A program made the translations under genes and the position numbers. DNA of 64,000 nt from Leptasterias polaris (lineage: Eukaryota > Echinodermata > Asteroidea > Forcipulatida > Asteriidae). Where the stretch lies: the NCBI GenBank assembly GCA_037783415.1, contig JAZGTN010000025.1, positions 3,720,001 through 3,784,000 of the forward strand, read 5' to 3'. Positions 1,229-54,752 of this stretch are shown one piece after another. Numbering within the stretch: the first letter of the stretch is position 1; every line of letters begins with the position of its first letter. The notes below the pieces were generated by a model. It saw nothing but the letters and a program-made list of their open reading frames with translations, was not told where the DNA came from and searched no databases.

Positions 1229-1337
1229 ATTGAATCGTGCTATATCGGCAGGGAGATACGCCAACGACGTCGGGAAACGGACAACATTTTACACTTTCTT
1301 TCCCGAGTCTCAACACATTAAAGATGTCGAAGACAAG
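1229..1337 (+). CDS. Gene A exon 4 (post-L-motif exon)
   Basis: 109 bp between acceptor TTCCTAAG and donor GTGAGA. Starts by completing an Arg codon (AG|A) and ends in phase 0. Encodes LNRAISAGRYANDVGK...HIKDVEDK. Same length and phase as the matching exons of genes B, C and D. Confidence 0.88.
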
Positions 1338-4300: not shown

Positions 4301-7300
4301 TACACAACTTGTGTAAATAATTTTCTGAGTGTACATAATGACGTCAGCAGTGTAAAAATGGTCTACAGGCATTTTTCAACAATCTGGCTATATAGCCATT
4401 GCCGATTAACCTTGGGCAGACAGTTTAATAGGTCTGAGTATAACCGAGATTTGTATTCTTATACTCACAGAATGTTCTTCTGTTCTTTGTGATGTTTAAG
4501 AAGTACGACGTAGAGTATGGATTGAACATGATTAATGAAGTCGAACATCCAAAGCACATAAGCGGAGGCAAAGAGCAGTAAGTTGGAAATATTGAGCACA
4601 TAATATGCAAGATGAATGGAACATAATTGTAAACATAAAGGCTGAGTAAAAAAAGACGAAGTTATGACTAACACTCTTTTCCAATTTGGACTTTTGAAGG
4701 ATTTCCGTGTTTAGCAGAACGGAAAGTTTACTTTATTTTGCACCTTGTCTTCGTTTTGAGTGCGAAGACAAGTCACGAATACCGGTTCTCATCAAACCAA
4801 GGATACCAGACTAATTTGCCATTCTAGTCTCAATTTGGTTCTTTGTTTCAAATGGGATCGAAACAAAATGGCTGTGAACAAAACATTTTTTAATGGGAGA
4901 CCTTTCGGGATGCTTTCAGCGTTATTAAAAACTGATATGTCTATATAGTTTATTTTAAATTTTTCTTCACTACAGTAAAATGGCCAGGCCCGCATCAGAT
5001 CCGAGGAGGTTAAAATTCGTTCACCCCAAGTTTTTCTACCACGTCTTTCACACTTATTTAGATGACAAGGCCTATCGGCCAACTACAGGTAAAACAATAG
5101 AACTCGCCTATTAAAGGGGCTGATCAAAACAAGGCCCAATTTCATAGAGCTGCTTAAGCAGGAAATATTGCATGATACCAGTGATAAATTGTACATGTGA
5201 CATGGTATTTTGGCAGGTAACCCCATTGTGGTAAGCATAATTATTTTGTGCTGAGCTACTTTTTTGTGCTTCAGCAGCTCTATGAAATTGGGTCCTGCTT
5301 GTGGAGCGGGTTTACTTGGGGCTGACCCAGGTGCATGACGTCACGACAAAACAAAAACCATTCTCAATGACCGCCATTTTGTTTGTAATTAAGCGGGACA
5401 CCTTCAGTGAGTCCGCTGACACACATTTTCACCCTTAAACCAGCGACTTTGTGAGCAATAAGTATTTTTTTTATTAGTAGATGCCTACTTTTGTATCGAC
5501 GTGGGCTCGTAAAACAATTTTACGTTGCGGTTTACCTTAAGAACAATTTCTTTAAAATCTTTTCGTGAATCCACGAACAGTTTTGGACGTCATGCACACA
5601 ATGAAAGTAGTTCTGGTCGGCTGTCCCAAGATACAGTGGTGTGAATGCTGGGGGAAGTTGGCGTTCGATTAGCTCAAGTCAGGGGGCTCACCCGGATGAG
5701 CACACCGAGGTCGACCCACGGAAGCTAATCGAACGCACCCTATGGAGAGCGTGCGCGCGTACAGTATGGGTGAGAGTTCATAAGTGTACAGACAGCCAGC
5801 CACAGCCCTGCTTTGATCATGATGACACAGCCACTTTATAAAAAAAATTAAAAAATTAACTACTCAAACCACTTTGTGCACTAATCACGGAATAACTTTT
5901 CCCTTGTAGTAATAGTTTATCAGTCGAATTAACATGGACCTAACACTGCGTCTTACTTGTTTCCTAGGGGCGCACCACACCAAATAAGCCAGAATTAATG
6001 CGCCAAGCTACTTATCATAATTTGTAAACCCACAACTTATTTTTAATTACAACGTTTTGGGGGTCATGCAATTAATAGATTGTGTAAATATAATAATCTA
6101 TCACAACCTGGGGGTTCTGTGCTTCAACCTTTGAGGAGACTTGATAAATTTAGGCGTTAAAGTTGGCCCTATTTGAACGGGAAAGTGGAGAAGTGCTTCA
6201 CGAAAACTGGCAGCAAGTCGGTTTTGGAAAAAAACAAATTTTCGCGTTTTTTTCTTCTGGGGTAGTTAGCAAAAATTCCAAACGGCTGACCTGGCAAAAA
6301 TTGAAAAGAATTCTAAAGTTCAGTCGTCCGAAAATATGTTTGATTGGTTTTCAAGAGGCTGAGAGACTTACACGATTTTTTGAGTATTTTTGAATATTTA
6401 TCATTTAGCATTGGTTCCTATGGGAGTTTATTTAGTGTGGTGCGCCCTATATATACAACATGGCGGCGCCCGTGCAGCCATGTTTGTGTTCTGTTTACAG
6501 ATGTAGGCTTGAAACAACGACAGTAATGAGTTGTGTGGGGGCATTGTGTGTCACTTTGTTGCTGTTTTTACATTGGAAACATAATTTCTTTGACTGTAAA
6601 CTGTTAGTATAGCAATAATGTTTCTATTTCCTCAAATTACAATACATTTATTAACCGAGAATACTTCAACGTTTCAAACTCAAAGAGGGGTTTGCTTTCT
6701 AAACCTTCATGGTTAAACTATGACAAGTAATAAGTATGAGACTGACGGTTTTAGTCACATTCAAAGAATCATGAGCCAACGTGGCTGGTTGAATATGAAA
6801 AAAGGAGAGAAAACCACCAAATAGACTATTTGAAGAGGAGTAGGGGGGTGGTGGATATGGCATCATATGTCAAGTTTCCGGAAGGTGAATGCACTCTGAT
6901 GCGTGTGAAACCCTAGGCCTAGCCCCCAACCAGCAGCCTAAACCCTACACTATACTGCAAAAACCGTAGCCGTCAGCCCAAACCCCAGCCCCCAGCCCAA
7001 CCCTACACCCATCAAGCCGAATCATGCCCCCAGCCCTAACCCTAGCCCCTAGCCGAAATCATAGCCCCAGCCCAAACCCTAACCCCCAGCCGAGCCTACC
7101 CCCAAAGCCCAAAACCCTAGCCGTCAGCCCGGACCCTAGCCCCCAGCCCAAACACCTTATTAGCTTACAGTCTTAACTCTTAACTATAGTCCAATTGTTC
7201 CCGTTCACCCACAATTTATTAACCGTAAAGTGTCTGGAAGGGCATTTTGCAACAAGCCCCGCCCACGCCCCGCCCACCCATTCACCCCCTTATCCCTTAA

Positions 7301-8606
7301 AGCTAGGTAAAATGAAACTTGGAATGACAATTAAACGTGGTAAAATGACCTATGTATATTCTTTTTTGTTATAAAGTTCACCATTTTAAACTCAATATGA
7401 TTACATGGTTAAAAATGTTGGCGGGTAAGCAAAATCTACCCCCCCCCCCCTTCTCAGGCCCTCCCTCTTCAATCCCCTTTCCCTTTTACAGCTTCCACAT
7501 TAGTTAACCCCCTCTTGTCAATTATTAAAAATAATTGTAAGGCGTTTAGAATCGTATAACTAAAAAAAAAGAGATAAGTTTATAACTTGTTGAGTGACTA
7601 GGATTTGGATATAACAACTGACTTGTCATTAGAGTGTACACAGCGTGTAATGCATGTTTTTCTTATCGCATGCTTAGAGTACATGTAAATGCTCCAACAT
7701 GTTTGACCTTGTTGTAGACGAACGCAATAACATTTCCAATTAATTTTTTCAGATATCAAGTCAGTGACTTATTTTCAACAATTTAAGCATAATTTTTTAA
7801 CCATAGAGAATAATTAAGTGCCCTTATAGGGCGCACCACACCAAATAAGCCAGAATTAATGCGCCAAGCTACTTATCATAATTTGTAAACCCACAACTTA
7901 TTTTTAATTACAACGTTTTGGGGGTCATGCAATTAATAGATTGTGTAAATATAATAATCTATCACAACCTGGGGGTTCTGTGCTTCAACCTTTGAGGAGA
8001 CTTGATAAATTTAGGCGTTAAAGTTGGCCCTATTTGAACGGGAAAGTGGAGAAGTGCTTCACGAAAACTGGCAGCAAGTCGGTTTTGGAAAAAAACAAAT
8101 TTTCGCGTTTTTTTCTTCTGGGGTAGTTAGCAAAAATTCCAAACGGCTGACCTGGCAAAAATTGAAAAGAATTCTAAAGTTCAGTCGTCCGAAAATATGT
8201 TTGATTGGTTTTCAAGAGGCTGAGAGACTTACACGATTTTTTGAGTATTTTTGAATATTTATCATTTAGCATTGGTTCCTATGGGAGTTTATTTAGTGTG
8301 GTGCGCCCCTAGGTGACAGCAGACTTAAGTCTGCTGCCACCTAGCGTTGCAAAGACACCAATTGAACCAATGCGATTTTCACTTTATACAGGTGCGCTGG
8401 TCGTGTTCCTAGCCTTACATTTATGTGACGAGGTAACACTATATGGGTTCGGCTACGACCCACGCTTCACCATGCACTACTACGACAACAAATTCGTCGT
8501 CCATACAGCTAAGTCGACGGGATCGCATGACGTAGACAATGAACGAAAGCTCTGGATGAAAATGCACGATGAGGGCGTAATCAGACTTTTCAAAAGGGAC
8601 GTTTGA
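1229..8606 (+). CDS. Gene A: ST6GalNAc1/2-like sialyltransferase (GT29), 3' part only
   Basis: Coding exons 1229-1337, 4471-4577, 4976-5088 and 8392-8606, joined in frame across GT-AG introns; 5' exons (membrane anchor, stem, L-motif) are outside the window. Predicted product transfers sialic acid from CMP-sialic acid to GalNAc of O-glycans in the Golgi (family knowledge). Seen: a post-L-motif exon (RLNRAIS...[15 protein letters not shown]), an exon with MFKKYDVEYGLNMI, the first half of the S-motif (VHPKFFYHVFHTYL...YRPTTG), and a last exon with LALHLCDEV, motif III HYYD and motif VS HDVDNE, ending RLFKRDV-stop. No stops or frame breaks in the visible part. A 14-bp minisatellite and a 1.2-kb foldback element fill its first visible intron; twin MITEs sit in its last intron. 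Exon 5 resembles gene C, but the last exon resembles gene D. Confidence 0.88.
1477..2547. repeat. 14-bp minisatellite, about 76 copies
   Basis: Unit CATTGGAGAATTGA with variants CATTGAAGAATTGA, CAATGGAGAATTGA and CATTGAAGAACTGA. The right part (about 2180-2500) is almost uniform and the left part mixes variants, suggesting recent spread from the right. Because 14 is not a multiple of 3 and the unit lacks stops on the minus strand, all three minus frames stay open. Lies in a gene A intron. Confidence 0.97.
3100..4333. mobile_element. 1.2-kb foldback DNA element in a gene A intron
   Basis: Ends TACACTCAGAAAA (3100) and TTTTCTGAGTGTA (4333) are inverted repeats. Inside is a long inverted repeat with arms about 3427-3624 and 3690-3882 around a short spacer; the rest is dense in GTAAA/TTTAC motifs. 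No transposase seen, so non-autonomous. Ends 137 bp before gene A exon 5. Confidence 0.85.
4471..4577 (+). CDS. Gene A exon 5
   Basis: 107 bp after acceptor ACTCACAG, before donor GTAAGT. Encodes NVLLFFVMFKKYDVEYGLNM and onward, ending with two bases of a His codon. Identical in length to gene C exon 5, and both start with Asn-Val. Confidence 0.85.
4976..5088 (+). CDS. Gene A exon 6 (first half of S-motif)
   Basis: 113 bp after acceptor CACTACAG, before donor GTAAAA. Encodes KMARPASDPRRLKFVHPKFF...KAYRPTTG, with the Gly codon split after its first base, as in all paralogues. Confidence 0.9.
5133..5294. mobile_element. GGGCCC-type foldback MITE, copy 2
   Basis: Ends GGCCCAATTTCATAGAGCTG and CAGCTCTATGAAATTGGGTC, in the last intron of gene A. 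Confidence 0.85.
5658..5740. repeat. Short inverted repeat
   Basis: GGCGTTCGATTAGCT and AGCTAATCGAACGC face each other across about 50 bp. The adjoining GCTTTGATCATGATGACACA (about 5810) resembles the ends of the element at 14359-15481. Confidence 0.5.
5968..6447. mobile_element. 480-bp MITE, first of two identical copies
   Basis: Ends GGGCGCACCACACCAAATAA and TTATTTAGTGTGGTGCGCCC are inverted repeats; TA lies at both flanks, as for Tc1/mariner-type insertion. No transposase. The sequence appears base-for-base identical to 7829-8308. Confidence 0.9.
6905..7155. repeat. Degenerate telomere-like C-rich array
   Basis: Repeats built on CCCTAGCCCCCAGCCCAAA and AACCCTA between the two identical MITEs. 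Resembles decayed interstitial telomeric repeat, but too irregular to be sure. Confidence 0.6.
7829..8308. mobile_element. 480-bp MITE, second identical copy
   Basis: Same orientation as copy 1, offset 1,861 bp, TA on both sides. Its right end lies 83 bp from the last exon of gene A. Confidence 0.9.
8392..8606 (+). CDS. Gene A last exon (S-motif end, motifs III and VS)
   Basis: Starts after TTTATACAG and completes the split Gly codon. Contains the S-motif Cys (LALHLCDEV), [15 protein letters not shown] (motif III) and HDVDNERKLW (motif VS, H-x4-E). Stop TGA at 8604-8606. Confidence 0.93.
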
Positions 8607-11039: not shown

Positions 11040-11128
11040 TGACCGGGAAGTTCTTAGAAAATAATAAATAGCAAAAATCCTCTGATGAAATGGTTTTTTT
11101 AAACTTTAATAATCATGACTAATGGTTA

Positions 11129-11575
11129 GTGTCGTGGCCGAGCGGATAAGAGCACCGGACTCAAGCTCTGGTGTTTCTGTTCAGCAGAGTGTGGGTTCGA
11201 GTCCCGGTCGTGACACTTGTGTCCTTATTAAGCAAGACACTTAACCATTATTGCTTCGTCCTTCGGATGGGACGTAAAGCCGTTGGTCCCGTGTGTTGTG
11301 TAATGCACGTAAAGAACCCAGTGCACTTATCGAAAAGAGAAGGGGTTCGCCCCGGTGTTCCTGGTTTGATCGGCTGCATATTGCGCCACAGCACCTTGGA
11401 AACCATTACATGGTGCTATGTAAAGAAATAGGCCTCAAAATTCAAAAAGTAGCTCCACATATATACCTTGCAGGAAAATATTGACTGTTGAAGCGCCTTG
11501 AGCGTCACTGAGTGACGGATATGAGCGCTATATAAGAAGCCATTATTATATTATTATTATTATTATATCTAATGT
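11129..11575 (+). mobile_element. tRNA-Leu-derived SINE
   Basis: The head (11129-11216) folds as a tRNA-Leu: A box TGGCCGAGCGG, anticodon loop CTCAAGC (anticodon CAA), long variable arm, B box GGTTCGAGTCC, and GTGTC/GACAC acceptor ends. It runs straight into a body (CAAGACACTTAACC, GTGCACTTATCG) and ends GCGCTATATAAGAAGCC plus ATT repeats, the layout of a SINE rather than a tRNA gene. Confidence 0.85.
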
Positions 11576-12550: not shown

Positions 12551-12768
12551 TCATACGATGTCTCTTTTCAGCAGTCTGATGACGCCCTCTTCGTTCAGTT
12601 TATACCAGATTGAACGTTCACTCTCCACGTCGTGTTCTAGTGTCATGTGGTTTGCGTGCTTAATAAAATGCTGGTCGTAGTAATGGTGGGAAAATCGATG
12701 GTCGTAGCCAAATCCGTACAAAGAGACTTCGTCACAGAGATGCAACGCCAAAAATGTCGCCATAGCAC
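12551..12768 (-). CDS. Gene B last exon
   Basis: Starts after acceptor TCTTCAG. Encodes [20 protein letters not shown], then HHYYD, EHDVESERSIW and ends RLLKRDIV-stop. The most diverged of the four last exons. Confidence 0.92.
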
Positions 12769-15700
12769 CTGAAGACACAAGAATATAAAAAAAACAAAAA
12801 ACAAATCTAACTCTATTTGATATACACAATTATTTATGAAAATTATCATAATTGTAGGCCTATACCATGTTCCCCGAGTGTGACGTAATTCCAGTGTAAG
12901 CCACGCTCACTCCCCACCTAATTTTCTTGCTAATAAGCCATGAAATTTGGCTCTGCTTATAGCAATTTGTTCCTGCTATAGGTAGCCGAATAGGTTTACA
13001 AAAGTTTGCTTCGCGTTAAAGGCCCTGTACACTATTGTAAGATCGAAGAACACAAAATGTTCACAGATTCACACATAACTTACATGATTTAAAGTAAGTA
13101 ATGGTTGAAAGGGTTCCTTAAAATATTTCTGCCTAAAATGCTATCGTTTCTGAGAAATGAGTAAAACAATAGTTTCCATTCACACAATGAAATCCCAAAT
13201 GTCTTATTGCTTTGGCATATTATTATAAACCATACATTGACCTTAATCCTATATACTCTATGCTATTTCAATTGAATCTCTTGTCCTCCAATGTGTGCTT
13301 AAAGGCCCTGTACACTATTGGTAAGATCGAAAAACACAAATGTTCACAGATTCACACATAACTTACATGATTTAAAGTAAGTAATGGTAGAAAGGGTTCC
13401 TTAAAATATTTCTGCCTAAAATGCTATCGTTTCTGAGAAATGAGTAAAACAATAGTTTTTATCGCGCGCGATAATAAACTCGATGTTTGAAAAACAGAAA
13501 ACACATAAGGTCTCTTTTCACTATTTTCTCGTGACCTCGATGACCAATTGAGCTCAAACTTTCACACGTTTGTTTGTTCATGCATATGTTGAATCACACA
13601 AAATGTGGACACTGATTTTAAGCTGTTACCAAAAGTATACAATGCCTTTAAGCAGCGCTATGTAAAGCGCATTGAGACGTTATTGTGAAATGCGCTATAT
13701 AAGAACTGGTTATTATTATTATTATTATTATTATGAAATTGGCCCAACAAGATTACATTTTTAGTGGATGCACATATCTGAAAATGGTTTATCCCTTTTC
13801 TCGGTGAAAGATGTGATTCGCAAATGGGCTTACCTGTTGTTGGCCGGTATTCTGATCCATTCAAGTATTCAGTTGCCACGTAGCGAATAAAATCAGGATG
13901 AGCGATTCTAATTTGGGTCGGATCCACATTTGGTGTTTCGATTTTACTGAGGATGAAAGTAATACAAAAAGAAATGTAGATTTTTATGGCAGCTCTGCGC
14001 TTTTAGCGTATAATGATGTAAATATGTAGTGAACAATTGGCTTTATTTTTATGTAATATAGTTTATTTTAAATCTTCAGACAAAAGTACATAAAGTCAAG
14101 ACAAAAGTAAAAAAACATTTCATCATAGATGTTTCAGACCCAATAAAAACCTCTACTACCAAGTTATAGATAAAATAAAAAATACCAAAAAACTGAATAC
14201 ATAATTTGAAACTAACGTAACTTTTGGAGACTGAATTATAAGACAAATAGAGCCACTAGCAAAGCAAATCAAGAAAGCTTGATTATAAGAAATACAAACA
14301 TTAAGAAGCAAAAATCAAAGACAGCTGATTTTACAAGTTGCCCTAATAACAACATAGGGGCTGTGTCGTCATGATCAAAGCAGGCCTGTGGTTGAACATG
14401 GAATGGGAGACTTTGGAGCGCTAGGTGGCAGCAGACTATACCAGGTAAATGTACATTCAGCCTCGCTACCATGGGTAGTCTTGGTGCAAGACGTCCCTGT
14501 TCTGTATTTCCACGATCCGCCCCATTACAAATTGCCGCCAATAGAGGGCGCTATCATTCCACGAACCGCTATCACAGGAACGTCTGTGATAGCGGTTCGT
14601 GGGTGATAGCGGGTTCGTGGAATGATAGCGCCCTCTATTGGCGGCAATTTGTAATGGGGCGGATCGTGGAAATACAGAACAGGGACGTCTTGCACCAAGA
14701 CTATACCATGGGCAGCGCGCTGTATCGATACCTCTCGTCACTAGCGATATGAGGGTGCAAGGCATGCCTCATTCAAATCTGAACTTCGTAAAACGTTCAT
14801 TAGTCCGTAATATTCAGTCCCTGCCTGATTCCGTGAGGGATCCTTGGTTTCATTAGCAGAAAATAATAAGAATAATAATAATATTCCTGCAAATATGTCA
14901 GCATTTCCATTTATGAGATCTAATCTGTGCTGATCTACGGAGTAGACAAACTTGGTTGCCATAAATATTAGGAACCGGAGGGGAATTTCCCCGTGTTTCT
15001 CTAAAAGAGTTTTTGCGGGTTTTTTGCCCCTCCCATAATCAGCGAATTTTAGATTTCAAAATTGTATATTCACCCTATACACTTTTTCTGAGTTCATTTT
15101 ACCTGAGTAATAGTTATACGTGTACAAGTTTTATAATGTAATATTTCGATGTGCTTTTAATTTACCGTATTTGTAATTATGCTGTATGTTGTAATGTATG
15201 CAGGGCCCCAATGGAAACCAGTTTTAACTGTTTGGGCATACCCTGGGTAAAGAAATGTAATAAATAAATAAATAAATAAATGTACATTGTTTACGTAGTT
15301 CTGAGCATGCGCACAATTCTGAGAACAATAGATTTACCTGCCAAAAGTCTCCCATTGCAAACTATAACACCAAGTTACTGCACGCGCACGCGCGCTCTCC
15401 ATTAGATATGATTATGGGGAGCGCGTTCAGTACAACCATAAGCCTGCTTGTTTTTGATTTTTTTCATGACGACACAGCCTCTTTAAAGGCACTGAACACG
15501 TTTTGTAAATTGTCAAAGACCAGTATTCTCACTTGGTGTACCCCAACATATGCATAAAATAACAAGCCTGTGAAAATTTGGGCTCAATTGGTCATTGAAG
15601 TTGCAAGAAAATGATGAAAGAAAAAACACCCTTGTTGTACAAATAGTGTGCTTTCAGATAGGAATAAAAGGCTTCTGGCCAAAAGTCTTTTATTATTTTA

Positions 15701-18700
15701 GTGAGAAATTACCCCTTTCTCAAAAACTACGTTACTTCAGAGGGAGTCGTTTCTCACAATGTTTTATACTATCAACAGCTCTCCGTTGCTCGTTACCAAG
15801 TAAGTTGTTATGCTAATATATATTTTGAGTAATTACCAAACGTGTACAGTGCCTTTAAGGACATTTCAAACGTTTAACGGGGAAAGGGGGTGTCATTGTT
15901 AACGAAGATTTTGTGCAGATTTTTCCATGAAAAAGAAACCACATTTTTGAGAGAAGAATTTGTTTAAATGCATTTAGGATTTAGCTACGACATCATGTGA
16001 ATAGCCTACCGTTTTACAACTCGTGGTACTCCTTTGCCACTTAAGATATTCAACGCGTAGTTCATGTCAAACACCTTAAACATGACAAGTATAAATTTGC
16101 CATCCTGAAAGAGACAACATAAATAATCAATTATATTGATGAACCACTGGTTACTGCTAAAGTTTGATTGTTTTTTTAAATTCACATTAACAAAAACAAA
16201 CTACATACAAACAAATGCAAAAATCAAAGCACAAAGAAAACAACTCAAGCTGAAACTGTTGCCCAAAATAAATTTAGCAATCAAGCAAAATAATTTGTCT
16301 TGATGAATAAATAAAAGCGAAAAGATAAATAAATAAACCCGCAAACAAAGAATAAACAAACACAATAACTTGTAATTACTCTAAATATTATTTCCTTCAA
16401 GGGGCCAATCAGAATAGTCAACATAAAACATAAATTAAAAAAATAATGATTTGTGGGGGGTGGGGGTCAAAAGAAATAACTAAAAAACGAAATTCAATTT
16501 TTATAAATAAAAGAAAGTCTATAAATTAACGAACGAAAATAAAAAGTACCCAGTTGGCAAAGATCGTCAATTGTGAACGCGTAAGGTGGCCGCCATATTT
16601 TCTTGCTAACCAGTGAATTACGCTTATTAAGCTTAAGCAAATTTTCCTGCTACAGGACGTCCAACCGCAATCAGTATTTGACTCAAGAGTTATTATGTTG
16701 TATTTGTTTATTTGTGTAGAGAGCCCAAGTGCGCCCTCAGTGTTGTTGATTGTAAAAAGTTAACTTTGGGGTCGCGACCTGTAGACCCAGTCTTTTTCTT
16801 TTGGTAGCTTTTAGCACGAGAGAGCACATTATAATTGGTCTGTATTTCTCTCCATTTTGTGGGAAGCATGGCTCTGGCCATGCTCCAAATACTATTTATC
16901 TGTGAGAGATAGTCTCGTAGAACTCTCTGTGAGTATTATTTTGTCTTGAAATATCTTTTGAGTTGAGAAATATTGTGATTTATAGGGCTGTTTCAATCGG
17001 TATATTATTGTAAACTTGTGTGTGTGTAGCCAGCCTCGTGTTGCGCTGACCTTTTGCCCTTTAGCTGTACATAAGTAACGGTGTGCATTTGTAATGTACA
17101 TGTATGCTATTTTGTAGTCTATGTGCTGTATGGCATTGAATTAAATCAGTACAGGAGATCATTGTTTTATATTTAACACGTCATCTATAGAATTTGTTGC
17201 TTTTATTGTATTCTTCTGGTGAATACTCGTCCTTTATAAATAGAGGACCGGCCTCCTTCCCGTGTCTCTACATTTGTTTATTTGTTTGGTTGTTTTTCCA
17301 GTACCTTGTCTACTGGGTGTTGTGGAGCAGTCATCGACTCCGGGAAGAATATATAAAAACTTGTCCTCTTCCCAACATCGTCTTCAAACGTCTTCGTGTA
17401 AGCATGGTTTAATCTGAAAAATAGACGATTGATGACCGAAAATTTTAACAACCTGTGTGAAAAAATTGTCAATCAATCAACTAATTATCATACAATTATT
17501 TATGAATCACACAAAAGGGAACTTTACTGTAGCTGGCTCTGTGGTCTAATGAAACCTGTAACAACAGGTTTTTTCTAGGACAACCCCCCCCCCCCCACAC
17601 ACACACACACACCGCTTAAAACCCGTGTTTACCCCCTCCCCACCCCCACACTCCCCCCCGTGAGATTGAAAATATGTCTCAATACATCAAAAGCCCCCTC
17701 AAATTGTGTCTTTGCCCCGCCTCCCCATACTGTTTTATTTGACCACCGAATTGTACGACATGTTCACGAGTTCATTTTAATGATCACATGCATATTTAAG
17801 AAATCTTATGGGAAAGGATCACATGAATATTAAAGATATATGGGAAATGATCACATGAATATTAAACAAATCTGGAATTATACCACATGAATATTTAAGA
17901 AGCATGAAATGATCAAATGAATATGTAACGTTTCGGGAATTACTACATGAATATTTAAGAAGTTTGAAATGTTCACAATGTTTCAGAATTCTGTGATCGT
18001 ATGAATATTTAACATGAATTAATACATGAATATTTCAGGTCTAGAATGATAAACACGAATATTTAAATTGTATGGCATGAATAATCATGAGACAGACGGT
18101 TAATGTAAGACTTTAAGATTCACCTGAAGACGTAGTCATGGCTGTCAATTTCAGGACCTGCTCTTGAGCCTTTGAGGACACCCCCGCAACCAACCACAGC
18201 GCACCGTAGGCATTCCTTCCGAGTACCGCCGAGATGTGCCGAAGTGTTACGGAAATTGGGATGCGTCACAATTTTGTGAAGAACTGTTGAGAAAACCACA
18301 ATGATCTCTCTTAATATTTTTTCTTCGATGTTCCTTTTTCAATTTTTGCCTCAAATAACACAATTTATAATAAGTAATATTGTATAACTTAATTAAACAA
18401 AGGTCAACGATATCACAGAGAAGATCAATGAAATGAAAAGGAGATGGGCAGGGCACTTAGAAAGGAGGCAAGACAACAGGGCCCAATTTCATGGCTCTGC
18501 TTACCGTAGGCAAAGAATCGGCGTTTACGGAAGCAGGGAATTCTGCGTTTACGTCAAGCGTATTTCACGGGTTAGCAGGGAATTGTTGCTTGTGCGCGTG
18601 CGTAGTCCACGTTACTAGGCATTCTACGCTTACGCAGCTAGCGCAGAAATTCGGCGCCTGCTCGGTAAGCAGAAAATGGTGATCGCAAGCGCAGAATTCG

Positions 18701-21772: not shown

Positions 21773-21987
21773 TCAAACATCTCTTTTGAAAAGCCGAATC
21801 ACGCCCTCTTGGTGCAGTTTCGACCAGAGCAGCCGTTCGTTGTCCACGTCGTGCGAACCAGTCGAGACGTCTGTGTGTTTCACGAAGCCCGTGTCGTAGT
21901 AGTGCATGGTGAATCGGGGATCGTAACCGAATCCATAGATTGCCACCTCGTCACAGAGATGGAGGGCAAGAAATACTGTCATAGCAC
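21773..21987 (-). CDS. Gene D last exon
   Basis: 215 bp after acceptor CATTTCAG. Encodes [46 protein letters not shown] and ends RLFKRDV-stop. Closest in wording to gene A's last exon. Confidence 0.93.
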
Positions 21988-24900
21988 CTGAAATGAACAA
22001 AGCATGGCGGATTATCTATTACCGAGCTTCCCCGAGGTATAACGAGTTTTCCCGAAGTTTACCGAGAAACAACGAAACGTCCGAACATAGTATAGGTTTT
22101 CTCGGTCAATTTCGGCAAATGAGCAGCCAATTTAACCACGACGCTATTCTATTTCGCGCGAAATCGAATGCTACTGAAAAGGGTCATTCGATTTCGTTTT
22201 ATGACTAGTCAAATGTTCTGTTGTGTCATTCGATTTAACAAAATAATCTTTCAATTTAACAATTCAACAAAGCAGCATTCAAATTCGCAGGAACTTTTTG
22301 AGGCGTGTGTTTAGTCATTCAAATTCATTTATGGGCAGTCATTTCGGGAATTTGTACAATCTAAAAAACGCTTTGTTAAACTTTTGTTTCCTTTCGAATG
22401 TTAAGGGCATAAATAGGGTTAACTTATTGGCACTAGTTTAACACGCATATTTCTAGAAATGGCAGCTCGTGGTCCCTACTCCTCATTCAACAGCACGAGA
22501 TGGTACACTCTGCATTCAAGGCTGCAGTTAAACGCATCCTTGGGTTACCTGAGTGGCAACAATGAGCATAATTTGTTCTTTACTGTAAAGACAGGCTGGC
22601 CAACAAGCAGGAATGAACATGCAGCAGTGGAGGTGCAATCTCCTTCAACAAGCAGCCATTCAGAGCGTTGATGCCATCACCCAAGTGAAGTGCATGCAGT
22701 GGTACAACCATACCCAAACGTATATGCCAAGATGTCTGGCACGCCAACAGATTGATGGTTGAGGAAGAAACAACATCAACAATGAAACAAAAAATAAAAA
22801 AATTAAAACATAAAGAAACAACCCATTCAGACACAAAAACAAATTAGGTCTCGGTCAGTTAACCAAAGATCCCCCCCTAAAAAATAAAATAAAAAATAAA
22901 ATAAAGAAGAAAACAAAGAAGAAAAAAAAAAAACTCAAGGGCCCCATGTAAAGTGTACTGGAAACATAGGCCTAACTAAAGAAAATAAGGTTTGCCTGAA
23001 TTAAAGTGAATTAAAGTTTATCTGTTTATTTGTATTTCTTAAGTCGTACTTATTTGAATTCTCATTTAGCGAAATTGATTGGCTCTTTACGAAATTGAAA
23101 AAAATAAATCAGTAAAAAACTCCAGTCGAACCAGCTTTGCTAAATTGAATGATGATTTAGTGTCACGAAAAAGAATGACGATATGCTAAATTGAACACAG
23201 TGCTAAAGGAATTTGAATGCCTCAAAACTAAATTGAATGGCCGAATTCTGAATTTGAAACGCAGTAACAACTGGAGAGGCAAAATAGCTTTAATTCGAAC
23301 GCACGAAAATGAAATCGGCTGCTCATTTGCTGAATTTGACCGAGAAAACCTATATTAGGAGAATATCCGGACCCATAGATGGAATAACTGTCATAGATAT
23401 AGGGAAATAAATACAGTCATTGCAACTGAAATGGATGAGCATATCAGCCACGAATCAACGAATTTCTCTCGAAATTTGACGAGTTTAAACGGAAATATCC
23501 AAACATATAGGAACCTCCGAACTCGAAGACTAACTCTTTACTGAGATGGTGCAAAGTCGGTCTCGGGCATTGAAATGTGTTGTGTGTCCTTGTCACTAAG
23601 AATAATTGATGGAAAGAAGTATGGAGATTTTATTACCTGAACTTAAAAAACAAATGGTTCACCAAATTGTCCCCGCCGAGTACCGAATAACTACGGAAAC
23701 TTCAGTAGGAGTATAGGGATAGGTACAGCTTAAGTCTGGTGGGCCTACACCTGTGGTTGGTCTGTATGATATTGCATTCAAATATTCAGCAAAGACGTAA
23801 CGGAAGAAGTCAGGGTGCACGATCTTCACTTTGGTTGGATCTACATTGGGTTTGGGTAAGACGCTGTAAGGTAAAACAATCCTCTTTAAGAAACATTCAC
23901 ATATGTTGCTTAGCACAAACTTAGTTTTGCTAAACCTGGGCCCAATTTCATAGAGCTGCTTAACGGTAAGCAAATTTTGGTGCTAACTGTAGCTGCAAAT
24001 TTTGCATAAGCGTAAGCGTATATCACAGGTTAGCAAGAAAACGAGGCGGCCACCTTCCGCGTTCAAAATGGATTTGCATTTTCACGTCGTGCATTTTCAT
24101 GAGCACCGAAAGGTTAGCATGCCTTTTCGCATGCTTACGGTTAGCAGCGCTATGAAATAGAAACTCGTAGGTAAGCACAGAATCGGCCGTTAGACAGCTC
24201 TCTGAAATTGGGCCCTTGTTAGCTGGCTGGCCTGGGTTCCCCCTTAGTCTGGACCCGGAACCTCCTCCTATTATACAATCCAGGAGGTTTACAGACTCTG
24301 TGCATCACCAGAAATACAATAAGTCTGGACACAATGTGGACTATTTAATTAATATCCCTTTGGTGATTGCTTTACTTCTTTCAAGGAAATCTGAAGGCTA
24401 AAAGAAGATTTTAAGAAAACCCTGAAGTCAGGAAAAAAATCATACAAAATCACACGACTGTGTCTGGTTTTGGCGTTGGTCACATTTTTTGTACAAACCG
24501 AGCAAGGGAGTTGGATTGTACGTTATTCCAGGGCAGCCAAGTTTCTATAAAAAATAATTATTAACCTTGCTAAAAGTTTTCTAGAATTTGACAATAATTA
24601 TTACTCTAGGGCCCAACTTCATAGAGCTGCTTACGAGCACAAAATGCAGCTAAGCACAAAACGTTTAAGCTTACCAGATTTTGATTACCAGTCAAATACC
24701 ATGTCGCATATTGTACGTAACTGGTATTCTGCTCATCTTTGCTCTGAAGACATTTTTTAAGCTAAGGCCGTATCCGAATTGGCGGCTACGGCTACGGCTA
24801 CGGCTGTTGCTAAGGGTGTTGCCAAGGACGTCCTATACTTCAATGCACGATGACGCGGAAATCTAGCCGTAGCCGTAGCTGTAGCCGCCAATTCGGACAC

Positions 24901-41106: not shown

Positions 41107-41373
41107 ATGGCATTAAAACTATTCCGACTTCGGCGACTGTACCTTGTCTTTGCGGTTCTGGCAATTTACGGTGGGCTGATGATGTTGTTGACGTTAATCC
41201 CTCTTCTGCGGCAAGCTAAAAATGACGGTAGCCTCAAGGGGTATCAGACAATCAGAAAGGGGGTTTTAGTTGATAGCGAGGCAAGTTTGACTAAACAAAA
41301 TAATAAGGCACGGGATAGAAAGTTACAGTTAGAGAGGCTGCCGTTCGAAAGAGATCCAGCTTACAAACAGTCG
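41107..41373 (+). CDS. Gene C exon 1 (anchor and stem)
   Basis: ATG at 41107; 89 codons; donor GTAAGA after [10 protein letters not shown]. Hydrophobic segment [20 protein letters not shown] after a basic tail. Confidence 0.88.
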
Positions 41374-44300
41374 GTAAGATATTTCATTTTGTGTAAACTC
41401 AATTCTATTTTTTCATTCAGAATCTATTTGTAAGTTGACATTATTCGTTGTGTCGATTGTTTTGTTATTTAAGCCATTGCATAAAAAATATGGTTGTTAA
41501 TACTTCTTTATTATTTGATTGCTAAGTTTTGTGTACCCTTTTTAAGCAGATATATAGATAAAACAACAAAACAAAACAATTGTGCTCTTTATTTAGATGC
41601 ACTGCATTAAAGCGAGCTATAAGATTTGTACACTTTTAGGAATACATATTGATGAAAACTTGTCTTGGAACAAGAATTGAAGTTATTTTCACTAAAATTT
41701 CATAAAACAATTCATGGTCATTCTTTTTTGGAGTAATTACCAAGGGTACATAATACCCTCCCTTTAAAGGCAATTTTCTTACAGTTTCCACTTTGTGTCT
41801 TGTTTTTTAAGGTTTGCCCCAAGACTGTCTCTTCAGTGACCAAATATTCCAAATGGTTCCGGGAAAGATATATTCCTGGGATAAAAATGTTCATAGACAA
41901 GGAGGACATTCGCAGAGTCAAAGAACTAAATGAGTATTCTCTCCCATTTGGGATCAAACAGGCTAACAAGACATGTAAGTTTTAAAAAATTCAAACAAGC
42001 AATGTCCATATACACACTCGTATATGACGTCACAAGCTCAAACAGCGCCCTCACTGAAAAGACGCATCCTCGGCTGATAGGCCGTGTGGTGGCGTCAGTT
42101 AGTGGCTGAGGCCGGAGCACATGAAAAGTCCTAATCTTCAACGTTGCCGCTGCAGCCAAAAGCCATAGCCATTATCACTTGATTCGGACACTAGCTCGAA
42201 CATCCGACGCAATCTAACGTCATCACTTCGAGTGGACATTGTATAAAAACACTTAATCATCCAGCCTGTGCTTTCATAACGAGTCACCCGTACACTAGGT
42301 TTTTTATCTGCAATGACTTGGGACAAGTCTAGTGTTGCACACGTGTCAAGACCAGGTGGTCGCGTTTTGAATTGTTGACACAACGCTTAGTTTTTAACAT
42401 TCCCGTACAAAAATGTAGAGACCCAGTTTTCTCAGAATGATTTCATCAGCTGTTGACAAATATTGCAGTTGGAGGGTATCGATTACAATGGCGATTTACA
42501 CCTTATTAACGTGAAGTTAGAGACTTGCTTTTTCCCACTCACATGAGGACTCTATCTATTGAAAAATTAGTACATCACAAAATTGGATGGGTCTTTTCCC
42601 TTCCTCCTTAAGCAAAATTTTGTGATGACTCTATCCGTAATACCTCATACAAAAAGGTTTATTTCCATCAGTTTTCCGTATATAAAGTGTTTTTATCAAA
42701 ATATGTTTTCTCAATAAACAATTACAATTCAAGGTAAAGAATAGAAAGTGAACTAAAATACTACTAAATATACATTTTCATTGTGACCCTCTTTGGTTCC
42801 AGTCGCTGAAATATTGAACCACACTTCGTTCCGCAACCCGGAACTTCCGCTGCACAACTCCAGTCAGCAATGCATCAAATGTGCTGTTGTCGGGTGCGGA
42901 GGGATCCTGAACGGATCCGAAGCCGGAGCGGAAATCGAAGGCCACGACTACGTCTTCAGGTACAGATTATATTTACTGGAAAAATTAGATTTTTCTATAA
43001 CGTCAGAGTTACTTAACAATCGACCTAATATGCATATTACGCCGGTTGAGTATAGGGCGCCGTCGCCTAAAGGTCAAAGGGAGCCGCTCATTGGCCACTC
43101 CTGTACGCCGTGCGTACAAATACAGGAAGTTGAATAATCTGCATAATTGAATTATTCATTTAAAACGATTCAAACGATTTCCGAATATTTGATTTTTATC
43201 TCGAGGTTGTTAATGTATGGGTTTTTTGTTTTTTCAATTGCAGGTTGAACAGGGCCTTTTCAAGAGGGCGCCATGCCAAGGATGTGGGCAAGAAAACCAC
43301 TTTTTATACATTCTTCCCCGAATCAGAGCACATTTCTGACGTATTTGACGAGGTGAGGTCAGATTCAAATCTGACAATATTGACCTTTAAATTTCACTGA
43401 TTTAAGTACGAATGAACTGGGCCCAATTTCATAGAGCTACTTTAATCAGCAGAAATTCTGCTAAGCAAACATTAGCATGATACCAGTCACAGTTTGTACG
43501 AGTGTGATAGTACTTTGGCTGGTAACCTATATTTTTGTTGTGCTTAGCTACTTGTTGTGCCTAAGCAGCTCTATGAAATTAGGCCCTGTTGATACGGCCT
43601 AAGAAAAGGTAGTGTGTGCTGGTGACTCATGAGGTCAAAGGTTAAATTCTGACAGGAAGACAGAGTCAACTGGTTTTTTAAACTGGTAACCTGAGAAGAA
43701 GGTGATATTTAACATGACGAATGAGTCTTACCGGTGTTCAACATGCTCGTCTGGGTTCCATCGCGAAGGTTGCCAGAAAATGAATCAATTCAAACAAGGC
43801 GCCAGACTATGCTCTCTTCCAGCCGTGACTTGGTCACATGGATCTGTGGGTAAAAAAATAATAATAGTTGCAATATCATAACGGCTTGTACTTTATAGGA
43901 AAGCTTTAAAACAATGTTTTACTTCATTTTTGTTTGTTTGGGGGCTTTTTTCTTCAGAATGTGACGTCCCTCTACGCCATGTTCAAACCTTATGACGTAT
44001 CATACGCTCTGCATATGATTAAAGACATTAAGCCACCAAACGCCTCAGGGGTGAACGGAATGCAGTAAGTATCTTTAGATTTGTTTAACTCTGCACCCTT
44101 TTTTTTCTTTGAAAAGCAATTAACTCTGTACACTGTGAAGAGAATTAACTCTGTGTTCAATTTTTTCTTTGAAGAGTACATATAACTCTGTAAACAAATT
44201 TCTTTGAAGAGTCTGTACACTTTTTTCTTTGAAGAGTAGTCAACTCTGCACACTTTGAAGAATAATTAACTATGTTCATTTTTTTCTTTGTACTATGTAC

Positions 44301-50596: not shown

Positions 50597-50638
<42 letters not shown>

Positions 50639-53600
50639 CTTTCACCACAGACTAACCAGCAAAACAGAACAGAAACACCCTCTGGCTTCCCTTATCCCGT
50701 ACATACCCCCTTCGAGGGATTGCCCTATCGGACACAAAACCTCTTAAATACCAACCAGTTAAAAAGCGCCGCAACGACGAATACAGACGGCGTACGACGG
50801 TGACCGAGTGCACACCGTCTGGACCGTCCGGGTGCACAGTGAACCTCAGATATGGGAGATTTTTTGCGCGCCGCTTCCCGTGTGCACACACAATCTCACC
50901 ATGCTGCTTTGCTAAACAGCTTTCTGCTAAGCTAAAACAAAGAGGAAACCAGTCACAAAATGGTACACACCACATGTTTTGGGGTAGCTGGTAATAAGCA
51001 AATTGTTTCGTGCTTGTAGTTCCTCAAAGTTCTCAAGCAGCTCTTAAACTGGGCCCCTGACCAATCGAAATAGATAGAGTTAACTCAAACGGTGGGCGAA
51101 TTTTTACTGACGTCTGCGTTTGCAAAGTGTGCACACCGAAATGAGGACTTGGGGTTAGTTGAACCTACGATATAACACATTTTCTGGTGGAATTCACCCT
51201 ATAAAAGTGCGTGCGTAAAATACGGTAGAAAAGTCACCATATCCAAGGACAACATTCTTCCTCGCGCGCGAGTTTTCCCACCACGTGTGACAATGGAACT
51301 ACGCGTGGAGGAAATTTTGACGTTGTATCTCAAAACTGAACGATTTTTAGGGTAACATTTTGAAGTACAGAGTGTGTACGAACTGCAGTAGAATATGTCC
51401 CAATTTACAGGATCAGTGTCGGCCACGGCGTTACAAACTGAAACAGTACTTACATAATCTATTGCACCGGGACACCAAATTGGCAGCTGTATGTCCTAAA
51501 TACACCGTTTTCTTTTGAACAATTCCCCCATGCTCCACGCACACAAATGTGCACATAATTGTCTCCATGTTGGCGGACAACATATACGAAAACTCTTTGC
51601 ACAAAAACGTATGAGTTGCAAAGGCTACATATACATACAGTGAAAGTAGATTGATAACCAACCGAATGATTGATTTTCTAGGGTAACATTATTAAGTATA
51701 GAGTGTGTACGAACTGCAGTAGAATATGTCCCAATTTGCAGGATCAGTGTCGGCCACGGCGTTACAAACTGAAACAGTACTTACATAATCTATTGCACCG
51801 GGACACCAAATTGGCAGCTGAATGTCCTAAATACACCGTTTTCTTTTGAACAATTCCCCCATGCTCCACGCACACAAATGTGCACATAATTGTCTCCATG
51901 TTGGCGGACAACATATATGAAAACTCTATGGGTATGGGACGGAGGATATGATGGGGAATGGTGGGGGTGGAGGAGGACTGGGGACATTTTTGAGAGAGGA
52001 TCATATTTTGGGTGGGGGATGGTGGGAAATGGTGGGGCAATTGTGGGGAGATTATGGGTGATGGTGGGGAGATTGTGGGTTATGGAGGGGTAATTGGGGG
52101 TGGTGGAGGCCTGGGGTCAATTTTACTCATTTGTTATACATTTTGGGGGGATAATTTTTGGTGGGGGATAATTTTTGGTGGGGGATGGTGGGGGAATGGA
52201 GGGGCAATGGTAGGGGTAGTGGGATGGTGGGGGTAATGTATGGATGATGGGGCAATGGTAGGAGAATAGTGGCTTGAAGGGGATGGGGTCAAATTTAAAT
52301 ACATTTTTCTTGGGGGATACATTTTGAGGAGGTGCTTTTTGGGAAGGGTCTGAATAAGGAAACTGAAACAAAGCTTTTTGGTAAAAAAGGACCATTGACA
52401 GCTGGCTTATTCTGAAAAATATTTATAAAAACCATTTAAAACCTCGATTAATGGAAGTACAACAGAATTCTTTTACTTGAAATACTTTCATTTGAAAGAC
52501 AATAATTTGTGTGCAGTGGTAAACAATGATTAAAGGGTGTGTACAACATTAGTAAGATTGATAATATAAATGTTCACAGATTTACACGTAACTTACATGG
52601 TATAAAGATGGTCATGGTTGAAAACTTCACTTGAAATAGTTTTGCTTGAAATGCTATGATAATTTTTGGGAAATGAGTAAAACAATTAGTCTTTATAAAC
52701 CGTGATAAAAAATCTGATGTTTGAAAACAGTGAAAATATATGTTTTTTAACTGTTTTATCATGACTCCAATGACCAACTTAAAGGTATTATACAGGATTG
52801 GCAGAGCTGACAAAATAATCACAGACAGTGTTCATGTTTTGTGTAATCAACCACATACATGAAATAACAAACCTGTGAAAATTTGAGCTCAATTGGTCAT
52901 CGAGGTCACGAGAAAATAGTGAAAAGAGACCTTATGTGTTTTCTGTTTTTCAAACATCGAGTTTATTATCGCGCGCGATAAAAACTATTGTTTTACTCAT
53001 TTCTCAGAAACGATAGCATTTTAGGCAGAAATATTTTAAGGAACCCTTTCTACCATTACTTACTTTAAATCATGTAAGTTATGTGTGAATCTGTGAACAT
53101 TTGTGTTGTACATGTTGGGTCATATCAAGTGTGGTTACCAGTGTTTGACAATTTACCAATGTTGTACATATGTTTTAATCTGTCGAAAGGTCAACCCGTC
53201 AAAACTCAAGATTATCCATCAAAGTTTCTTCCATTATGTCTTCTACAAATAATTAAACCAATGACACCTTCGAAGAAGTTACCAAGTGCATCGTAAAATT
53301 ATAAATGCATTTTACTCAAAATGTATTATCTCTATTTTTTCAGCATCTTGAGAAAGCCCCAGGTCAACCCGTCGAAACTTAAGATTGTTCATCCAAGTTT
53401 CTTCCGTTACGTCCTTGCAAAATATATGGGAGGAGTTTCCTACAGACCAACAACAGGTAAGAAATCACGGAGGGGAAAGGAGGTTCAAATTATTGTAATT
53501 CTTTTTTGTATTTTTGTTGAATAGTGTTTTGTTTCTTGTTCATGATTTTAAAGAGGGAAAACACCTAATGGGGAAAACCCACGGTATCATGGCCCAATTT

Positions 53601-54752
53601 CATAGAGCTGCTTAAGCAGAAAATATTGCTTAACAAATTCCTGCTTACTAGAAATCAGCAGGATACCATTCACAAAAATGTTTACATGTGACATGGTGTT
53701 TTGGCTGGTAACCTTAGTCTGGTAAGCATCATTTCGTTGTGCTTAGCTTAATTTGGTGCTTCAGCAGCTCTATGAACTTGGGCCCAGGTAGGGACTGAAA
53801 ACCGAATCCACAAACGAGCACCTGCCTGAGGTTGGATTCGAACCAGGGTCTACGGAAGTGTAAAGGCATGGAAGGAAACCACTGAGCCAACCTGATCCTC
53901 CCCTTTTTGTGGGATGTGTTTGCCACATTTGTCACTGATTTGACATTGTTGGTGGAACATACTGCAACCTTTTGTATACAAATTTTCTTGACGTCATTTT
54001 CATTTCCCCGTAGCTCTACAAATCCTTTCAGCTTGCATGTTCCTCCTAACGTACTAGAACTTCCTCCAAACACATCTTAAACGTCCCAAGGAACCATCTG
54101 GAAGTGTCCAAGCCTCGATTTATTCCTATAATCTACAACATGCTCCATTGCTCCATGATAGGTGTGATATGATTCGGGGTATTGTTGTTTTCGCAAACAA
54201 GTTTTCGCAAACAAGTCCGCATGCAGATGTGTTTTGTTTTGGTAAATGATGACTAGGTTTTGTTTTTATTGCTACTGAAATTTTCCTTAGCTTCGCCCTA
54301 TTATGTGATCTTATTTAACCTTCAAACTCTTCAACTAACATTTTTTATATTTTCAGTATCTTGTCATTGTTTTCGTACACTATGCTCTATTCAAAATCTG
54401 TTTTTTAAAGTCACTTCCTGTTTTGGGTGATTTGTTGTAGGCTGGAGATAAACAAAATAAAATTAAAACATTAAACAAATTAGTGATAATTAAATTTTGT
54501 GTACAAGAAATGACATCCCTGTTCCATTCTACACTAGGTGCTCTTGTTGTGATCATGGCCCTGCATCTCTGTGATGAGGTCAACATCTACGGATTCGGGT
54601 ACGACCAACGATACACCCTGCACTACTACGATGAACAATTCATCAAGCACCCAGATAATTTTACAGAAATTCACGACATTGACAATGAGCGAAATCTTTG
54701 GAAAAAACTCCATGACGAGGGAATCTTGCGACTCTTTAAAAGGGACGAGTGA
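41107..54752 (+). CDS. Gene C: ST6GalNAc1/2-like sialyltransferase, complete, 376 aa
   Basis: Exons 41107-41373, 41812-41974, 42803-42959, 43244-43352, 43958-44064, 53344-53456, 54538-54752 (1,131 bp with stop). Type [12 protein letters not shown], a membrane segment at about residues 11-34, short charged stem. L-motif at 170-196 ([17 protein letters not shown]...HDYVFR), S-motif split over the last two exons ([30 protein letters not shown]), HYYD at 334-337, HDIDNE at 351-356. Five N-glycosylation sequons (NHT, NSS, NVT, NAS, NFT), more than I see in B or D. Its fifth intron is 9.3 kb and full of tandem and mobile repeats, and a decayed copy of exon 6 lies 155 bp upstream of the real one. 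Divergent from gene D, convergent with DHX8. Confidence 0.93.
41812..41974 (+). CDS. Gene C exon 2
   Basis: 163 bp after acceptor TTTTTTAAG, before donor GTAAGT. Encodes [20 protein letters not shown]...[13 protein letters not shown]. Confidence 0.9.
42803..42959 (+). CDS. Gene C exon 3 (L-motif)
   Basis: 157 bp after acceptor GGTTCCAG, before donor GTACAG. Encodes [11 protein letters not shown], then [18 protein letters not shown] and [10 protein letters not shown]. Confidence 0.93.
43244..43352 (+). CDS. Gene C exon 4 (post-L-motif)
   Basis: 109 bp after acceptor AATTGCAG, before donor GTGAGG. Encodes [20 protein letters not shown], then [16 protein letters not shown]. Confidence 0.9.
43419..43586. 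mobile_element. GGGCCC-type foldback MITE in a gene C intron
   Basis: Ends GGGCCCAATTTCATAGAGCT and AGCTCTATGAAATTAGGCCC, 66 bp after the donor of gene C exon 4. Confidence 0.88.
43958..44064 (+). CDS. Gene C exon 5
   Basis: 107 bp after acceptor TTCTTCAG, before donor GTAAGT. Encodes [20 protein letters not shown], then [15 protein letters not shown]. Confidence 0.88.
44093..44590. repeat. Degenerate 30-40 bp tandem repeat after gene C exon 5
   Basis: About 14 diverged units of TTTCTTTGAAGAGTAATTAACTCTGTACACTT type, here described by its parts: TTTCTTTGAAGAGTAATT then AACTCTGTACACTT. Begins about 28 bp after the exon 5 donor. Confidence 0.88.
45462..45503. mobile_element. Diverged end of the 480-bp MITE family
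   Basis: CGCTATGGGAGTTTAATTTAGTGGGGTGCA resembles the right end of the twin MITEs (TATGGGAGTTTATTTAGTGT...). Compared here only by those parts. Confidence 0.45.
45918..45985. repeat. 18-bp tandem repeat
   Basis: GTAAACAACATTTGGGTT repeated three times plus a partial copy. Confidence 0.9.
46909..47450. repeat. 271-bp direct duplication
   Basis: Units start near 46909 and 47179 and share long stretches (CGCGTTAGGAAATCATGCAA, GTCTGTCCGACTGCAATTCC). Both carry ATGGTTTGTGCACATTGTTA. Confidence 0.85.
47671..47687. repeat. Poly-C tract
   Basis: Seventeen C in a row in gene C intron 5; length may be unreliable in assembly. Confidence 0.85.
49158..49477. mobile_element. 320-bp MITE ending CATCTGGGGGTGTTTCATAAAG
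   Basis: Inverted ends CATCTGGGGGTGTTTCATAA and its near inverse; the interior has repeated AATCTTATCT/AAGATTAA motifs. Confidence 0.85.
49480..50540. other. Gene C intron 5, no recognised content
   Basis: AT-rich; no exon, no clear terminal repeats. Confidence 0.4.
50590..50637. repeat. Long poly-C tract
   Basis: About 48 C with one T interruption just upstream. Produces spurious polyproline frames; true length is doubtful. Confidence 0.9.
50903..51057. mobile_element. GGGCCC-type foldback MITE, left-truncated
   Basis: Core with GAAACCAGTCACAAAATGGT and right end AGCAGCTCTTAAACTGGGCC; the left end is lost. Confidence 0.7.
51342..51928. repeat. Direct duplication of about 257 bp
   Basis: Copies 51342-51598 and 51672-51928, nearly identical (GAGTGTGTACGAACTGCAGT, CAGGATCAGTGTCGGCCACG, CTCCATGTTGGCGGACAACA). 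On the minus strand each carries the same Cys-rich frame ([11 protein letters not shown]...CNRLCKYC). Confidence 0.88.
51935..52335. repeat. Strand-asymmetric G-rich sequence
   Basis: Dominated by GGTGGGGGATGGTGGGG-like runs on the plus strand, directly after the duplication. Many GGG tracts, so quadruplex formation is conceivable. Confidence 0.8.
52526..53105. mobile_element. Two head-to-head copies of the TTAAAGG...TGTTCACAG repeat
   Basis: 52526-52782 runs forward (TTAAAGGGTGTGTACAACAT, TGTTCACAGATTTACACGTA) and 52783-53105 runs reverse, matching 13300-13653 inverted (TATCGCGCGCGATA shared). Ends about 84 bp before the decayed exon 6 copy. Confidence 0.75.
53189..53252 (+). pseudogene. 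Decayed or alternative copy of gene C exon 6
   Basis: Closely matches the middle of exon 6, 173 bp upstream of the corresponding bases. In frame it reads [20 protein letters not shown] and then TAA at 53250-53252, against [20 protein letters not shown] in the real exon. No good donor follows and the YRPTTG end is missing. Best read as a relic of a local exon duplication; a rare truncating alternative exon is possible. Confidence 0.7.
53344..53456 (+). CDS. Gene C exon 6 (first half of S-motif)
   Basis: 113 bp after acceptor TTTTTTCAG, before donor GTAAGA. Encodes [20 protein letters not shown], then [18 protein letters not shown]. Confidence 0.92.
53591..53785. mobile_element. GGGCCC-type foldback MITE in a gene C intron
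   Basis: Ends GGCCCAATTTCATAGAGCTG and CAGCTCTATGAACTTGGGCC, with the standard core (TGTGACATGGTGTTTTGGCT). Confidence 0.9.
53786..53905 (-). mobile_element. tRNA-like SINE head fragment, minus strand
   Basis: Minus strand has a B-box-like GGTTCGAATCC (written inverted on the plus strand at about 53833) and an A-box-like TTGGCTCAGTGGTTTCC near 53890. A similar fragment lies at 58517-58632. Confidence 0.55.
54538..54752 (+). CDS. Gene C last exon
   Basis: 215 bp after acceptor CTACACTAG. Encodes [20 protein letters not shown], then [25 protein letters not shown] and ends [12 protein letters not shown]. Confidence 0.93.

Follow-up and report, generated by a model that had tools for sequence, protein, structure and literature searches.

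The window analyzed here, a 64,000-nucleotide stretch of the Leptasterias polaris genome, contains four GT29 genes (PF00777), which we refer to as A, B, D, and C from left to right. We consider it probable that these sea-star genes belong neither to the ST6GalNAc1/2 clade nor to that of vertebrate ST3Gal1, that A, C, and D are ancient and B is younger, and that the cluster is one that sea stars share. This is new detail inside a known enzyme family; the earlier name of the genes, ST6GalNAc1/2-type, needs to be changed, and their history is older than first thought.

Four GT29 genes share an exon plan

Exons were found by comparing the six-frame pieces of the window with one another, which gave homologous exon sets on both strands, and then reading the flanks of these sets. 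Gene A lies on the plus strand and is truncated on the left, B and D lie on the minus strand, and C lies on the plus strand; A and B are arranged tail to tail, B is followed by D on the same strand, and D and C are head to head. A sequence-only reading of this DNA had proposed four GT29 genes on both strands between 1229 and 54752, and our models bear this out: all four spliced models match PF00777 at 127.9-228.1 bits (E 6.1e-37 to 1.7e-67; the Pfam cut-off is 23), the first exon of A within the window begins at 1229, and the C stop codon ends at 54752. The exons are listed below; where no other basis is given, they were placed by splice borders and phase.

1229..1337, plus: A exon 4, end of the L motif (AG/GT borders, phase 2 in and 0 out; PF00777)
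4471..4577, plus: A exon 5
4976..5088, plus: A exon 6, start of the S motif
8392..8606, plus: A exon 7, rest of the S motif, motif III, motif VS, and stop
20826..21000, minus: B exon 1a, start codon and membrane anchor (putative; from frame, splice phase, and hydropathy only)
19799..19986, minus: B exon 1b, stem, ending PFKED..FKES as in the paralogues (pattern PF..D...ES) (frame, phase)
19136..19298, minus: B exon 2
18124..18283, minus: B exon 3, L motif
17305..17413, minus: B exon 4
16010..16104, minus: B exon 5
13834..13946, minus: B exon 6
12551..12768, minus: B exon 7 and stop
35019..35351, minus: D exon 1, start codon, membrane anchor, and stem (tblastn with P0001, E 1.9e-32)
33891..34053, minus: D exon 2
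32439..32598, minus: D exon 3, L motif
27545..27653, minus: D exon 4
24993..25102, minus: D exon 5
23751..23863, minus: D exon 6
21773..21987, minus: D exon 7 and stop
41107..41373, plus: C exon 1, start codon, membrane anchor, and stem (tblastn with P0014, E 5.8e-13)
41812..41974, plus: C exon 2
42803..42959, plus: C exon 3, L motif
43244..43352, plus: C exon 4
43958..44064, plus: C exon 5
53344..53456, plus: C exon 6
54538..54752, plus: C exon 7 and stop
53178..53258, plus: decayed copy of exon 6, within C intron 5 (in-frame stop; 87% over 53 bases against exon 6; tblastn)

The 22 exons common to the genes (six each in B, C, and D and four in A) all have an AG acceptor, and GT is present at all internal donors. 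Exons 2-7 measure 163, 157-160, 109, 95-110, 113, and 215-218 bases, and the phases after exons 2-7 are 1, 2, 0, 2, 1, and stop, identical in each gene that holds a given exon. The view that all four genes follow the same exon plan stands for the phases, near-identical lengths, and AG/GT borders of these shared exons but does not extend to the whole of B, in which the stem is split by one intron more than C and D carry. With the addition of first coding exons to those reported earlier (41107-41373 in C, 35019-35351 in D, and the two-part 20826-21000 plus 19799-19986 in B), the frames of B, C, and D are complete at 406, 376, and 400 amino acids, respectively. All three have a hydrophobic stretch near the N terminus, with hydropathy peaks of 2.1-2.5 over 19 residues from positions 13-14, which is predicted to be a type II membrane anchor.

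Only exons 4-7 of A are in the window, as expected from the earlier description of this gene as incomplete at the left edge. A tblastn comparison of 57 relatives with the window gave 74 matches with E <2 outside the exons then known, of which the best 40 were examined. No GT29 match was seen in 1-1228 among these 40, and exons 1-3 of A thus probably lie beyond the left edge. Nor did the best 40 of the 74 matches contain a fifth GT29 gene, the sole further GT29 piece credited being the decayed exon 6 copy inside C. On the right of C, a minus-strand exon in 62417-62689 matches the helicase DHX8 (HA2_C; best PDB match DHX8, 8.1e-21), and the cluster therefore probably ends at C on that side. When 16 other open frames were compared with Pfam, this exon was the one that matched, and it can serve as a synteny anchor on the right-hand side.

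A, C, and D are old lineages shared with other sea stars

The tree comprised 69 rows, namely the four window genes and 65 of the 279 proteins fetched, and the protein match lists behind it covered the best 120 of 199, 120 of 141, and 120 of 1925 matches. From P0001-P0049, 38 were kept, whereas one of 266 amino acids, eight amphioxus rows, and two others were dropped by hand. A reduced set was made without B, four long rows, and two motif blocks. In the 69-row tree, A grouped with P0010, P0004, P0005, and P0013 (97/80; 97/82 for the A group in the reduced set), C grouped with P0014, P0008, and P0011 (100/100 in both sets), and D grouped with P0001, P0002, P0003, and B (100/99, and again 100/99 for the D group in the reduced set, which lacks B). 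D is closest to an Asterias amurensis protein (90% identity), whereas C (78%) and A (80%) are closest to Asterias rubens proteins; in each case, Acanthaster and Patiria come next, which places the host sea star nearer to Asterias than to these two genera. The relatives of A, C, and D among the GT29 proteins of A. amurensis, A. rubens, Patiria miniata, and Acanthaster planci (P0001-P0014 and others) share tree groups with these genes and are 66-90% identical to them over the compared region. Each of these groups holds Asterias, Acanthaster, and Patiria members, and A, C, and D split apart before Asterias diverged from Patiria and Acanthaster. The sequence-only reading had credited the four genes to duplications in this animal's own lineage, a claim that we abandon, as a private expansion (one clade of just A-D) was rejected with p-AU 4.65e-05. 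What survives of that account is that the genes encode GT29 enzymes and arose by local duplication with inversion, and, in a GT29 tree with echinoderm, hemichordate, and vertebrate rows, A-D do fall in one clade and not in unrelated GT29 clades. The further idea of that reading, that the products sialylate O-glycans and give this animal a richer set than vertebrates have at one locus, is conjectural.

At least five lines in the 69-row tree (A, C, D, the P0012 type, and the P0027 type) each have Asterias, Patiria, and Acanthaster members. Further, the tree rows of a species apparently sit mostly on one contig (6/7 in Patiria, 5/6 in Acanthaster, 3/3 in A. rubens, and 2/2 in A. amurensis), counts that come from the best 120 of 199 matches and in which an equal-sized contig was taken as the same contig, as a stand-in only. 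From these contig counts and the composition of the A, C, and D groups, the cluster looks old and common to sea stars. In the best tree, P0006, P0007, and P0012 are placed beside sea urchin, sea cucumber, brittle star, and crinoid rows; a single clade of the 22 sea-star rows was not rejected (p-AU 0.289).

B joined D and the A. amurensis protein P0001 in the 69-row tree with 99/87, on a branch of 0.64 compared with 0.08 for D, and a placement of B outside the D group was not rejected (p-AU 0.13). No orthologue of B was found, nothing above 60% identity being present among the best 120 of the 141 matches in the B protein search. Most probably, B is a fast-evolving sister of D that arose later, after Asterias had split from Patiria and Acanthaster.

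The coding sequences are conserved

Sialylmotifs L, S, III, and VS are whole in B, C, and D, and the part of A within the window carries the end of L followed by S, III, and VS. The cysteines of the L and S motifs and the VS His...Glu pattern are present, the VS histidine and glutamate in 4/4 genes. When near-invariant alignment columns were defined with B left out, B, C, and D each kept 27/27 and A kept 16/16 of those that it covers. Among the four genes, pN is 0.23-0.33 versus a pS of 0.71-0.81, a comparison that is informative for direction only, because silent sites are near saturation; dS is saturated in 5/6 gene pairs, and dN/dS for B and D is about 0.28/2.14.

The window genes form no part of the ST6GalNAc1/2 clade

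The window genes fell within a clade of 42 rows from echinoderms, hemichordates, and amphioxus (80/94; 96/94 in the reduced set, without B), hereafter the window clade. A separate ST6GalNAc1/2 clade of 16 rows (10 vertebrate, 5 ambulacrarian, and 1 further; 99/96, and 99/93 in the reduced set) excluded all four window genes in the 69-row tree and again those retained in the reduced set. A grouping of the window clade with the six non-vertebrate ST6GalNAc1/2 rows, leaving the vertebrates out, was rejected with p-AU 0.00177, a value to be read as a guide only, as the six-row grouping was picked after inspection of the tree. Both clades include rows from Amphiura and Apostichopus, which means that the two clades are paralogues and that the ST6GalNAc1/2 label does not fit the window genes. 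Sea-star rows in the ST6GalNAc1/2 clade were not found among the best 120 of each protein match list.

The spacing from HP to PTTG is 18-20 residues in the window clade (42/42), 19 in ST3Gal1 (6/6), 22 in ST8Sia3 (5/5), and 23-27 in ST6GalNAc1/2 (16/16); this long loop as a mark of ST6GalNAc1/2 is a feature found in the present alignment and not one taken from a paper. The window clade is missing the 4-8-residue insert that ST6GalNAc1/2 has before PTTG and, like ST3Gal1, has PES after the L motif. ST6GalNAc1/2 proteins, represented by human ST6GALNAC2 (6apj/6apl), thus differ from the window genes in their separate clade, their longer loop before PTTG, and their lack of PES and FKxxD. On these grounds (the clade, the rejected merged grouping, the missing insert, and PES), the ST6GalNAc1/2 label of the sequence-only reading was given up.

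Two further features were considered and set aside. In the L-motif VVGCGG, the residue that is Asn in 25/27 other rows is Cys in 29, Ser in 9, and Thr in 3 of the 41 window-clade rows that cover it; Cys as a special mark was dropped, as several fish ST6GalNAc1 rows have T, S, or A there. A profile built from 13 GT29 proteins gave ST6GALNAC2 379 bits versus 185 bits for ST3Gal1 but was not counted because it held vertebrate ST6GalNAc1/2 rows.

The window clade resembles ST3Gal1 in part

In aligned columns, T......[YF]PE was found in 38/42 window-clade rows and FK..D..[WYF] in 37/42; both are in 6/6 ST3Gal1, 0/16 ST6GalNAc1/2, and 0/5 ST8Sia3 rows. A passage of PMC1508147 describes TTx(4)YPE and FKxxDxxW as unique to ST3Gal. 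These strict forms occur in 0/4 window genes, whereas the relaxed forms, TTx4FPE or TSx4FPE together with FKxxDxxY, occur in 4/4. Pig ST3Gal1 (2wnb/2wml) resembles the window genes in loop spacing, PES, and the relaxed linkage motifs, and it scores 133.8 bits to D compared with 131.8 for ST6GALNAC2, but differs in that the strict motifs are absent from the window genes, the branch is long, and the grouping is weak. The window clade grouped with ST3Gal1 at 84/72 in the 69-row tree, falling to 45/8 in the reduced set; the ST3Gal rows are vertebrate ST3Gal1 only, and the branch leading to them is very long (2.34). Three arrangements of the window clade, ST6GalNAc1/2, ST3Gal1, and ST8Sia3 were statistically indistinguishable in both full and reduced sets. 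This unsettled order fits the closeness of ST6GalNAc1/2 to ST3Gal and ST8Sia described in an excerpt of PMC5811610.

Discussion

If the window genes behave as their family does, the A-D products would be type II Golgi enzymes that take sialic acid from CMP-sialic acid and transfer it with inversion, with the histidine of the VS motif as the base; one section of PMC10225777 describes the GT29 sialyltransferases as inverting enzymes whose base is a histidine in motif VS. For the linkage, an alpha2,3 bond to Gal or GalNAc as the acceptor is our favored guess from the sequences, one we would back about as readily as doubt; alpha2,6 to GalNAc would be a doubtful second, and some other linkage seems unlikely. 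Automatic names do not settle the matter, as they conflict even inside one orthologue group (P0001 and P0003 are called alpha-2,3 and P0002 alpha-2,6), and the linkage cannot be read from annotation.

Several other readings of the locus were weighed. The genes might be an invertebrate ST3Gal of a described group (GR1 or GRx) that multiplied locally in sea stars, which we regard as possible but doubtful. The relaxed ST3Gal motifs and the weak grouping with ST3Gal1 would accord with this, part of PMC5000683 describes ST3Gal of invertebrates as well as a GRx group that vertebrates have lost, and the portion of PMC5811610 cited above mentions sea-urchin ST3Gal and ST6GalNAc sequences, under which names members of the window clade may be catalogued. 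On the other side, the tree rows include no paper-named invertebrate ST3Gal and no ST3Gal3-6, and both the length of the ST3Gal1 branch and the drop in support in the reduced set speak against a close tie. It is unlikely, in our judgment, that the genes are functionally ST6GalNAc1/2-type, i.e. that they place alpha2,6 sialic acid on O-glycan GalNAc and that the window clade is a sister group sharing the ST6GalNAc1/2 linkage. Trees in which the two clades were held together gave p-AU 0.372 (0.479 in the reduced set), the L motif HDYVFRLN of B, C, and D is that of the hamster ST6GalNAc2 row, human ST6GALNAC2 outscores ST3Gal1 against the last exon of C, and the P0001 model has human ST6GALNAC2 as its top structural match. 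Many relatives also carry alpha-2,6 names from automatic annotation, the cluster could have assumed the role of the sea-star ST6GalNAc1/2 rows missing among the best 120 per list, and DHX8, which adjoins C, is on what we take to be the same human chromosome as ST6GALNAC1/2. These points are opposed by the position of the window genes outside a ST6GalNAc1/2 clade with its own echinoderm rows, by the rejected merged alternative, by the missing insert and the PES, and by the conflict of names within the P0001/P0002/P0003 group.

A loss of function or a non-enzymatic role in one or more of the four genes, B foremost, is very improbable. B has a long branch, distant closest relatives, and an extra intron, and C contains a decayed exon copy, but the frame of B is full, its near-invariant residues and motif His and Glu are retained, and pN is far below pS. 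A more far-reaching proposal is a new GT29 subfamily that amphioxus, hemichordates, and echinoderms have but vertebrates lack, with at least five ancient, clustered sea-star paralogues that would sialylate O3, or O3 and O6, of ganglioside GalNAc; taken as a whole, it is rather improbable. We know of no characterized enzyme for O3 or O3 plus O6 GalNAc sialylation of sea-star gangliosides. In Evasterias retifera gangliosides, as related in a part of PMC8228791, one sialic acid is on O3 of GalNAc and a second on O6 of the same GalNAc; that part names no specific enzyme for sea-star sialoglycolipids. As a clade with mixed ST3Gal and ST6GalNAc marks that has multiplied in sea stars, the window clade would be a fair candidate for Evasterias-type products.

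We return to the reading favored at the outset, of four GT29 genes outside both named clades in an old sea-star cluster. Their products would most likely be Golgi sialyltransferases that diversify sea-star sialoglycans and may supply part of the unusual ones, such as the gangliosides of Evasterias with O3- and O6-substituted GalNAc. A close precedent is ST8Sia EX of amphioxus and sea urchin, which an extract of PMC2564942 presents as an invertebrate-deuterostome GT29 group that was tandemly duplicated (in amphioxus) and is reported lost in vertebrates, although it belongs to another GT29 family (alpha2,8). Among the open-licence literature matches listed, judged by titles and abstract openings, no description of the cluster was found, and a 2023 review (PMC10225777) states that the history of the ST6GALNAC family in deuterostomes has not been reconstructed. 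Because the relative age of the paralogues is known and orthologues occur in laboratory species such as P. miniata, the question of which enzyme forms which linkage could be addressed directly.

Repeats within the window

The last intron of A holds two 480-base direct repeats (5968-6447 and 7829-8308, plus strand) that are 100% identical. Each starts with GGGCGCACCACACCA and finishes in a near-inverse of GGGCGCACCACACCA (14/15), and the outer flanks share CTAG. The pair, spanning 5968-8308, is a young composite DNA-transposon-like insertion that ends 83 bases ahead of A exon 7. Another intron of A contains about 76 copies of a 14-base unit (1476-2547), which are open in three minus-strand frames. 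ARAGORN called a tRNA-Leu (caa) at 11127-11214 on the plus strand, with no Rfam confirmation at the gathering score; translated pieces at this site are similar to others at about 19.5-19.8 kb and 27.0-27.2 kb, pointing to a tRNA-derived repeat. Finally, 13333-13614 and 52826-53107 form an inverted dispersed repeat with 95% identity.
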